A DNA stretch of 24,456 nt from a virus: positions 1-24,456 of IMG/VR virus record IMGVR_UViG_3300024329_000055; one strand, given 5' to 3'. The notes under the pieces were generated by a model. The model was not told where the DNA came from. It ran no database searches and saw only the letters and a list, made by a program, of their open reading frames with translations. The translations under genes were made by a program, and so were the position numbers. Shown here piece by piece: positions 20,942 through 22,879 of this stretch (positions within the stretch are counted from its first letter, which is position 1; every line of letters begins with the position of its first letter).

Positions 20942-20993
20942 TTGGATTATATTTTATTCTTGGTCTTTTTTTTCTTTTAGGCTTGTCACTCAT
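20868..20993 (-). CDS. Possible 41-aa basic protein, overlapping
   Basis: A short frame whose ATG (20993-20991) overlaps the TGA of the GroES-like gene as ATGA, the coupling pattern used elsewhere in this window. It encodes a very basic N-terminus (SDKPKRKKRPRIKYNPNG) and ends inside the 95-aa gene in another frame. The first 17 codons fill the 48-nt gap between the two genes. The second half may simply be a shadow of the 95-aa gene. Its basic character would suit DNA or RNA binding, but existence is uncertain. Confidence 0.35.
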   Translation of the reverse strand: MSDKPKRKKRPRIKYNPNGTRPKNFKEEYYSGRNESRRATN

Positions 20994-21553
20994 AATTTTA
21001 TTGTTATTTGATGGTCAAACATTCGATAAAGTTTTTCACCATCTACTTCAAATTCATACTCACTTTCTGGTTTAAAACAAATTTTATCTCCCGGATTCAC
21101 ATTTTGTGAACGCAAATAATTATTGCTATATTTTATTTCACCAATTAATGGTTCTTCGTTAGTGTTTTTGTATAAGTAATAGTCTTCTGCAGCAACAGGT
21201 TTAGTAAAGCAATACCTGCCATTAGTATTCCATTGCTTACCATTATGGTACATGTAAAACTGATCAGGCTCAACAAAAAACAAGTCATCCATAAAATAAC
21301 TTCTACCACTTTTTCTTCTACCCTGCATGTCATTGTAAAACTTAAAAACATTGTGATGAACTAAAAGTTTATCTCCTGGCTTTATAGGACCATCATACAC
21401 AATAGGTGTGGCTACCACCTCAGCAATACGATTAGATGCTTTATGATTTTCCTCAGATGTGTTTGTTATTAAATCTACTCCACCTATTTTTTTGGTATTG
21501 TTATATCTTTTACTGTCTAAAGGAGTAGTGATAAATAAGTAAGGTGATTTCAT
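20990..21553 (-). CDS. GroES-like (co-chaperonin-type) protein in the packaging cluster
   Basis: A 187-aa protein with two segments resembling the GroES/Cpn10 beta-barrel. Module 1 (~41-95) reads RIAEVVATPIVYDGPIKPGD then KLLVHHNVFKFY. Module 2 (~136-187) reads IGEIKYSNNYLR, NVNPGDKICF, EYEFEVDGEKLYRMF and DHQITI. The PGDK/LLV and final YxxxDHQITI pattern parallels the Cpn10 PGD strand and terminal DIL strand. It overlaps the 76-aa gene by one base (TAATG) and the possible 41-aa ORF by ATGA. No mobile loop like that of GroES is clearly seen, so it may be a structural use of the fold rather than a true co-chaperonin. The family call is moderate and function unknown. Confidence 0.62.
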   Translation of the reverse strand: MKSPYLFITTPLDSKRYNNTKKIGGVDLITNTSEENHKASNRIAEVVATPIVYDGPIKPGDKLLVHHNVFKFYNDMQGRRKSGRSYFMDDLFFVEPDQFYMYHNGKQWNTNGRYCFTKPVAAEDYYLYKNTNEEPLIGEIKYSNNYLRSQNVNPGDKICFKPESEYEFEVDGEKLYRMFDHQITIKL

Positions 21554-21804: not shown

Positions 21805-21812
21805 CAAATATA
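21805..21812 (-). promoter_or_regulatory. Bacteroidetes-type -7 promoter box for packaging operon
   Basis: The minus strand reads TATATTTG, 21 nt before the ATG at 21783, and lies only a few bases after the T-run of the terminator at 21815-21848. Any -35/-33 element would fall in the terminator stem, and none is evident. Confidence 0.58.
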
Positions 21813-21814
21813 AA

Positions 21815-21848
21815 CAAAAAAAAATACCCCTAAAAAAATAGAGGTATT
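21815..21848 (-). terminator. Intrinsic terminator after the virion gene and hairpin array
   Basis: On the minus strand AATACCTCTA, loop TTTTTT, TAGGGGTATT form a 10-bp stem with one G-U pair, then a T-run (21815-21822). It lies ~10 nt downstream of the hairpin array and ends the transcript of the 301-aa gene. The T-rich stem top weakens it somewhat. Confidence 0.78.
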
Positions 21849-21852
21849 CTAA

Positions 21853-21941
21853 GCGAAGAGGTGACGCTAATTGCGCACATCTCAAGGATGTGACGCTAAT
21901 TGCGCACATCTCAAGGATGTGACGCTAATTGCGCACCTCGC
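21853..21941 (-). repeat. Tandem array of three bulged hairpins (29-bp period)
   Basis: GTGACGCTAATTGCGCAC occurs at 21861-21878, 21890-21907 and 21919-21936 without a mismatch, separated by identical 11-nt spacers ATCTCAAGGAT. Each unit folds as GTG, bulged base, CGC, 5-nt loop, GCG, CAC; the middle unit's spacer bases (GAT/ATC) extend the stem to 9 bp with one bulge. Outer arms GAGGTG and CACCTC, with GC beyond, can close the whole array. On the minus-strand transcript the loop is AAUUA and the bulge is U. The array is clearly richer in G+C than the surrounding DNA. It lies just after the TAA of the 301-aa gene, before a terminator and the packaging promoter. Confidence 0.9.
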
Positions 21942-21946
21942 ATATT

Positions 21947-22852
21947 TTAAAAAGCTCTTGAAGCAGGAGCATTAGAGCCTTGTGTTAAAGTATATCCTGC
22001 TACAATTTTATAATCAAAACTGTTATATTGATATTTTAACATTAATGCGTTTGATAAATTTCCAAATATATATGGCAACTCATGGTTTGTGTTTGTCCAT
22101 GCAGGGTTTGGAATACCTATAGCAAATTTCATTATAATCTGTGATGTTCTTTTGTTATCTAGATTATTATCGGGATTTACATTAGCAGCAGGTCTTTTAA
22201 CTGAAAATCTTGTACCCCAAAAATAATCTGTTGTTGTCGCAGGAAGTGATGTCACTTCTGTATTCGTGCTGTCATACAAAAATCCTAAAGGATTAAAAGG
22301 CACTTCAATATATGTATTAGGTCTTAAAGAAGCAAAGTCAGTTATCAGTGACCCTGTCTTAGCAATCTTTAATTCACTATTTATATCCCATTCTGTTGGA
22401 ATAGGAAATAAAACTTCAGCTGAACTAAAACCAAATTGCTCGCTTGATGCCCAATTGCTACCTGGAAAATTAGTTCTCTGATATTCTCCATTGTTATGAG
22501 AAGGATGAATAAAATTTGCCCTTTTCATAACATATACCTGGGCTAAATTTTTAACTTTTTGCTTTTTATATCTAAACATAAAAAGCCTAGGATTTTTAGT
22601 TAACCAATCTGTTTCAACAGGTTTTTGCATAGCCACAAAAGCTTTATTATTTCTTGTAGTTGCATCAACATATGGTCTTTTCAAAACATACATATAAGGT
22701 GTAGGAATATCATCAGCTTGTTTTATGTAATTTTTTAAACCCTCAACAGTAATGTTCTTAGTAACATCTGTTGGTGTCCCATTTTTTTGAGTGATAACTA
22801 TCTTATCATCACCTTGAGGTGTAACCGTATTATATGAACTAATCTTTGGCAT
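21947..22852 (-). CDS. Virion-type protein of unknown function (301 aa)
   Basis: N-terminus MPKISSYNTVTPQGDDKIVI followed by TKNITVEGLKNYI, a pattern common at the start of structural proteins in flavobacterial phages. The rest is aromatic- and Asn-rich beta-type sequence (PTEWDINSEL, RPNTYIEVPFNPLGF, NHELPYIFGNLSNALMLKYQYNSF) with no membrane segment or enzyme motif. It has its own promoter and a 3' untranslated region with the hairpin array and terminator, so it is probably a single-gene transcript. Position between lysis and packaging modules could fit a head fibre, tail spike or decoration protein; which one cannot be told. Confidence 0.72.
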   Translation of the reverse strand: MPKISSYNTVTPQGDDKIVITQKNGTPTDVTKNITVEGLKNYIKQADDIPTPYMYVLKRPYVDATTRNNKAFVAMQKPVETDWLTKNPRLFMFRYKKQKVKNLAQVYVMKRANFIHPSHNNGEYQRTNFPGSNWASSEQFGFSSAEVLFPIPTEWDINSELKIAKTGSLITDFASLRPNTYIEVPFNPLGFLYDSTNTEVTSLPATTTDYFWGTRFSVKRPAANVNPDNNLDNKRTSQIIMKFAIGIPNPAWTNTNHELPYIFGNLSNALMLKYQYNSFDYKIVAGYTLTQGSNAPASRAF

Positions 22853-22871: not shown

Positions 22872-22879
22872 CAAAGATA
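22872..22879 (-). promoter_or_regulatory. Bacteroidetes-type -7 promoter box for the 301-aa gene
   Basis: Minus-strand TATCTTTG lies 19 nt before the ATG at 22852, within AAAATTAGTATCTTTGA, an exact 17-nt match to the region upstream of the cupin gene at 4472. It sits just downstream of the holin-like gene's stop. Confidence 0.62.

Follow-up and report, generated by a model that had tools for sequence, protein, structure and literature searches.

The window (the whole stretch of DNA analysed, 24.5 kb) is an IMG/VR fragment whose source was called a marine phage, and all of its likely genes lie on the minus strand. The terL product (721 aa) matches PHROG 6681 and the portal matches PHROG 6547; the closest GenBank matches among those listed, at ∼67–71% DNA identity, come from phages of Flavobacterium, Maribacter and Tenacibaculum and from a Manatee Spring Caudoviricetes genome. 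Ahead of the packaging genes lies up301, a gene whose 3′ UTR is filled, from stop codon to rho-independent terminator, by an RNA element, the folded block having its 5′ edge 7 nt past the stop codon and its 3′ edge 7 nt ahead of the terminator. A 76-aa ORF, a GroES-like ORF, a 95-aa ORF and terL follow the terminator in that order. The features are given below in the direction of transcription.

22872–22879, minus strand: candidate promoter −7 element TATCTTTG (TAnnTTTG), 27 nt 5′ of up301, by pattern only
21947–22852, minus strand: up301, probable fibre/appendage gene of 301 aa (ORF; 26-member family alignment)
21858–21939, minus strand: whole RNA element, a pseudo-three-fold-symmetric three-way junction of 82 nt (27 of 27 pairs formed in the window sequence)
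21931–21939, minus strand: outer helix, 5′ strand GAGGUGCGC, partner 21858–21867
21926–21930, minus strand: linker 1, AAUUA (alignment A5 and structure scan)
21916–21925, minus strand: helix H1, 5′ strand GCGUCACAUC, with U at 21922 bulged, partner 21902–21910
21911–21915, minus strand: H1 pentaloop CUUGA, consensus NUNGN with U2 and G4 invariant (alignment A5)
21902–21910, minus strand: helix H1, 3′ strand GAUGUGCGC (covariation analysis)
21897–21901, minus strand: linker 2, AAUUA (alignment A5 and structure scan)
21887–21896, minus strand: helix H2, 5′ strand GCGUCACAUC, with U at 21893 bulged, partner 21873–21881
21882–21886, minus strand: H2 pentaloop CUUGA, consensus NUNGN (alignment A5)
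21873–21881, minus strand: helix H2, 3′ strand GAUGUGCGC (covariation analysis)
21868–21872, minus strand: linker 3, AAUUA (alignment A5 and structure scan)
21858–21867, minus strand: outer helix, 3′ strand GCGUCACCUC, with U at 21864 bulged (covariation analysis)
21821–21850, minus strand: rho-independent terminator, 7 nt 3′ of the element
21805–21812, minus strand: candidate promoter −7 element TATATTTG, 29 nt 5′ of the 76-aa ORF and packaging operon, by pattern only

TAnnTTTG is the Bacteroidota promoter −7 consensus, and its presence ahead of both genes suggests that up301 and the packaging genes are separate transcription units. Such motifs occur at 22879, 21812, 16038, 12563 and 4509 (minus strand), 25–37 nt ahead of five gene starts. 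The GroES-like protein (187 aa, PHROG 13932; 20990–21553, minus strand), encoded two genes ahead of terL, has relatives in several hundred IMG/VR stretches.

An earlier note on this DNA had described three exact copies of an 18-bp core at intervals of 29 bp, and these are borne out: GTGCGCAATTAGCGTCAC (minus strand) occurs at 21861–21878, 21890–21907 and 21919–21936, a period of 29, where chance would be expected to supply no copies even with 3 mismatches allowed. The outer GAGGTG/CACCTC arms, proposed to close the block, are also present and covary in relatives, and the terminator at 21850–21821 (minus strand) agrees with the placement of the array in a 3′ UTR ahead of a terminator. The exact 18-mer is absent from every other contig in an IMG/VR search. 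Mean unit identity is 80% within a phage against 63–64% between phages; judged by such comparisons, the units are homogenised within each phage, and the exact identity of the three window units is one extreme of a range.

Searches with the neighbouring proteins yielded about 215 relative loci, in which the interval from up301 to the 76-aa ORF spans ∼155–173 nt and contains a similar array. Relatives with the same gene gave a nearly gapless alignment of 25 distinct sequences (A5), on which three foldings were compared: separate hairpins with AATTA loops, one long hairpin, and a three-way junction. The junction, Y-shaped, comprises three 9-bp helices with one bulged base each, connected by three near-identical 5-nt linkers; each unit contributes its 3′ half to a helix with the 5′ half of the following unit, and the two ends of the array form the third helix; NUNGN pentaloops cap the two closed arms, their U and G being invariant in both loops. 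Across the 25 relatives, 93.9% of cells are standard pairs and 22 of the 27 pairs have changed on both sides (5 of 9 in the outer helix, where 97.3% of cells are paired, 8 of 9 in H1 and 9 of 9 in H2), such that the compensatory changes in close relatives proposed as a check by the earlier note are abundant. When substitutions were replayed on the tree as a null model, the junction value of 0.939 compared with a mean of 0.611 (sd 0.038, maximum 0.704), with 13 of 22 variable pairs significant at p<0.05, against 2 of 10 for the separate hairpins. The junction covariation of 0.566 likewise compares with 0.150 for shuffled alignments and at most 0.159 for slid controls, and RNAalifold, with the alignment as its sole input, returns the three-way junction.

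In the columns over which the three foldings differ, the junction pairs 88.2% of cells, the long hairpin 82.4% and the separate hairpins 73.7%. The palindromic form of each window unit suggests independent folding into three bulged hairpins (loops AATTA), as the earlier note had read the array; that resemblance arises because homogenised units that pair with their neighbours must be near-palindromes. Their covariation is far weaker than that of the junction, and a G-C to A-U change at the base of H2 in one relative (L216) keeps the junction paired and breaks or weakens pairing in two of the separate hairpins, so that relatives covary as a single three-way junction and the independent-hairpin folding, which we rejected, is scarcely credible.

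Energy models favour alternatives over the junction by ∼3–10 kcal/mol. For the window, the minimum-energy fold stands at −42.8 kcal/mol against −36.6 kcal/mol for the junction (nearest-neighbour model), the lowest-energy structure usually being a longer form that joins unit 1 to unit 3; folding of the block is in any case very stable (z −6.7 to −7.8). Homogenisation of the units accounts for the fairly good pairing of this one long hairpin; the hairpin was rejected because H1 and H2 remain locally paired in relatives with changes in single arms (L005, L183, L079 and L205), and the long form may also exist alongside the junction. Pairing between linkers (AGUU/AACU) was also considered and rejected, being confined to the L005 and L148 lineage with no support in others; the linkers of these two read AGUUA, AAUUA and AACUA, a possible compensated pair of linkers 1 and 3. 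Nearly all S1 and S3 linkers have the self-complementary form RRYYN.

The junction pairs include 46 G-U and only 2 A-C combinations, counts over cells that are non-independent events with a clear direction. This imbalance indicates selection on the sense strand as RNA, and selection acting on duplex DNA or on the opposite strand would not produce it, in keeping with the RNA-level function that had been claimed.

The same architecture is retained in relatives with other linkers (AGUGU or GGUUU). Linker 1 reads AGUUA in relatives, AGUGU in the S2 elements and GGUUU in the S3 elements; up301 homologues with 45–46% identity (L032, L033) are followed by linkers AGUGU/AGUUU, whereas at ∼40% identity (L079, L205, L211, L212) the linkers are GGUUU/GGUUC/GGUUA and the outer helix differs completely. 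In S2, the outer helix loses strength close to the junction. A model built on S1 (R1) did not detect S3, with which S1 has nearly no common sequence, and a sequence-free scan, defined by geometry (three helices of 9 bp with gaps of 5 nt) and NUNGN loops, was therefore applied to 1.96 Mb. This recovered the S1, S2 and S3 elements together with one other family of sites, false-looking, inside the terL coding sequence and with unlike linkers; one strand of shuffled sequence gave no sites. The earlier suggestion that selection acted on sequence rather than on structure is thus contradicted, as the S2 and S3 relatives differ in sequence and have an identical fold.

The element, single-copy in each phage, follows one gene. 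Of 31 distinct 3′ regions of the up301 family, a strict scan detected it in 29; in the remaining two (L147 and L196) the element is present but lacks one loop base or has a closing G-G mismatch. It was detected in none of 71 distinct other upstream regions at the locus (L152 left out). In L152 (393–1202), up301 seems to carry a frameshift close to its C-terminus, and the RNA element is intact. A DNA pattern search returned 33 contigs, all already-known up301 carriers, and most phages that have these packaging genes do not carry the element. It is also lacking behind the anchor-sharing genes of L021, L025 and L029, which, together with L038 and L082, are element-less relatives that retain the terminator; by comparison of these sequences, the terminator is part of the locus, present in several same-locus phages without the element. 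The L021, L025 and L029 genes encode another C-terminal domain, and a single hairpin, GTAGGTGACTTACCTAC, replaces the junction there, ahead of a terminator of the same kind.

Gene and element also move together. Between L148 and L005, identity is 97–100% across gene, element and terminator and 63–69% beyond, and between L163 and L165 it reaches 81–97% solely across gene, element and terminator; both pairs are mosaic, the switch falling where the 76-aa ORF starts. The phages L079 and L082, otherwise 97–99% identical, differ by a clean insertion of gene plus element before a common terminator. By such alignments, gene and element form a cassette that is transferred from one phage lineage to another, leaving the terminator and packaging genes in place. 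As the element is exchanged with up301, it most likely serves up301 or its protein, and not the terminator or packaging genes. Taken by computation, the fold, the strand, the conservation and the linkage to the gene leave very little room for doubt.

The locus resembles a fibre-type cassette hot spot. The insertion in L079 measures 1.1 kb (L079:4154–5248 against L082:5056–5078), and L079 retains the preceding 160-aa anchor-bearing gene, with the result that two anchor-type genes stand in tandem. In L165 (2327–5808), ∼3.5 kb absent from L163 lies between the upstream genes and up301 and starts with another anchor-type gene.

The up301 protein combines an N-terminal anchor (∼residues 1–45) with a C-terminal domain specific to the element-bearing family; other proteins at the locus have only the anchor in common with it, and some of these alternatives match tail-spike or tail-protein PHROGs. 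Its description as a virion gene in the earlier note is therefore likely on the strength of the anchor, while the protein itself is without a database match (Pfam, NCBIfam, PADLOC, and PDB sequence and fold searches), and up301 is best called a probable attachment-fibre or appendage-type gene. A structure model of the monomer is of low confidence (mean pLDDT 63.5). Homologues were not found in isolated phages or GTDB genomes, and MW202828, the closest GenBank phage among the matches listed, lacks both up301 and the element.

The reading that we favour, with a probability of roughly 0.4 for the mechanism as a whole, is that the element is a single structured RNA in the up301 3′ UTR that acts in cis and is contacted by a three-fold symmetric protein. 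The RNA would act on the up301 message, and, more tentatively, its three equivalent arms and linkers might be the surfaces contacted; the invariant loop bases and constrained linkers are more readily explained by contact with a protein than by a hairpin that merely confers stability. Because tail fibres and spikes are generally trimers, the prime candidate partner would be the up301 product itself, perhaps as a trimer, and the earlier proposal of a multivalent RNA-binding protein was a sensible guess, with the protein multivalent or oligomeric. Bound RNA could feed back on message stability or translation, or could hold nascent chains together for trimer assembly beside the terminating ribosome, under or beside which an element 7 nt past the stop codon would lie, within possible reach of the nascent C-terminal domain. 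A more specific version, in which the RNA is a symmetry-matched scaffold that binds the encoded trimeric fibre and helps three nascent chains to meet or autoregulates their synthesis, is speculative and rather unlikely. For TRAP, with its 11 repeats, RNA repeat number is matched to protein symmetry, a principle alike to the one proposed here, whereas TRAP sites are single-stranded triplets in a 5′ leader.

Conceivable, though on balance improbable, is a protein-independent 3′-end function, whereby the block and terminator would shield the up301 message from 3′ exonucleases, or a double-strand RNase would cut the block to tune expression, as in retroregulation. In phage lambda, int is retroregulated by sib, which lies 3′ of the gene and acts through an RNase III hairpin; regulation of a phage gene from its 3′ side would be the common feature, while sib has neither repeats nor a three-fold plan. 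The distances of 7 nt to both stop codon and terminator, the very stable fold (z −6.7 to −7.8), and a promoter-like motif and terminator that probably belong to up301 alone would all suit such a function. A plain hairpin would suffice for it, however, and phages with other genes at this locus have a terminator or one hairpin only; the three-fold repetition, constrained linkers, invariant loop bases and strict linkage to one protein domain would be left unexplained.

There is a small chance that the 3′ UTR is freed as a trans-acting small RNA with a host or phage target. Small RNAs derived from 3′ UTRs are typically structured and end in a terminator, as here, but a conserved seed-like stretch is absent, S1 and S3 being almost unrelated in sequence, and trans action would not require linkage to a cassette gene. 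Equally doubtful is a DNA element, whether an attC-like recombination end of a mobile fibre cassette or the pac site, replication iteron or operator array that the earlier note had listed as alternatives. Gene and element do behave as a cassette, and integrons have structured cassette-end sites with extrahelical bases; in the comparison with attC, however, exchange ends beyond the element, at the start of the next gene and past the common terminator. The G-U to A-C ratio of 46 to 2 points to one folded strand with wobble tolerated, as in RNA, and this asymmetry and the linkage to the upstream gene, together with the absence of the element from most phages sharing the packaging genes, disfavour DNA-level roles.

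Antitermination of the put type, in which the element would control the adjacent terminator and set read-through into the packaging operon, draws on the position of the element directly 5′ of the terminator and is most improbable, since the element tracks the upstream gene rather than the terminator or packaging genes, relatives have the same terminator without it, and a separate promoter-like motif precedes the packaging operon. A type III RNA antitoxin of the ToxI/antiQ kind can be dismissed almost entirely: the layout of ∼2.8 tandem RNA repeats, terminator and small ORF is that of type III systems, in which ToxI/antiQ repeats of 34–36 nt occur in 2.8–5.5 copies (PMC8860590, PMC5086642) and three ToxI repeats form a triangle with three protein copies (PMC5086642), but ToxI, CptI and TenpI are autonomous pseudoknots with a ToxN-fold endoribonuclease encoded downstream, whereas the present units interlock as one junction linked to the upstream gene, recombination separates the array from the 76-aa ORF, that ORF occurs with or without the array, and neither it nor up301 has a Pfam or PADLOC toxin match.

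Other structured RNAs show partial likeness. MS2/PP7-type coat-protein operators are autonomous bulged hairpins with a conserved loop, a form poorly supported here. The φ29 prohead RNA is a phage RNA with a three-way junction (PMC5340915), which is the sole likeness; the present element is built from repeats and lies in a fibre-gene 3′ UTR, and the terminase here (PHROG 6681, 721 aa) is not a φ29-type packaging ATPase. Nearest in concept is the L17 downstream element, a candidate 3′-UTR RNA after a ribosomal protein gene of Lactobacillales and Listeria, for which the strand was assigned from G-U pairs and feedback by the product was proposed, 3′-UTR regulation in bacteria being termed highly unusual (PMC2864571). 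Both are structured RNAs directly after one gene with a strand call from G-U pairs; no three-fold repeat design has been reported for L17, and the present element is without an Rfam match, no score exceeding the gathering threshold. A tRNA/tmRNA search returned nothing, and no description of such an element was found in the literature.

The element is a real, conserved and apparently unrecorded RNA of double-stranded DNA phages, situated in a 3′ UTR and tied to the upstream gene, where bacterial regulation is considered rare. Its three-fold junction survives almost complete sequence turnover and travels only with one fibre-type domain, which allows a concrete proposal, that RNA symmetry is matched to protein symmetry, possibly for the assembly or control of a fibre. 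If the scaffold reading were true, the symmetry of a messenger RNA would copy that of the protein it encodes.
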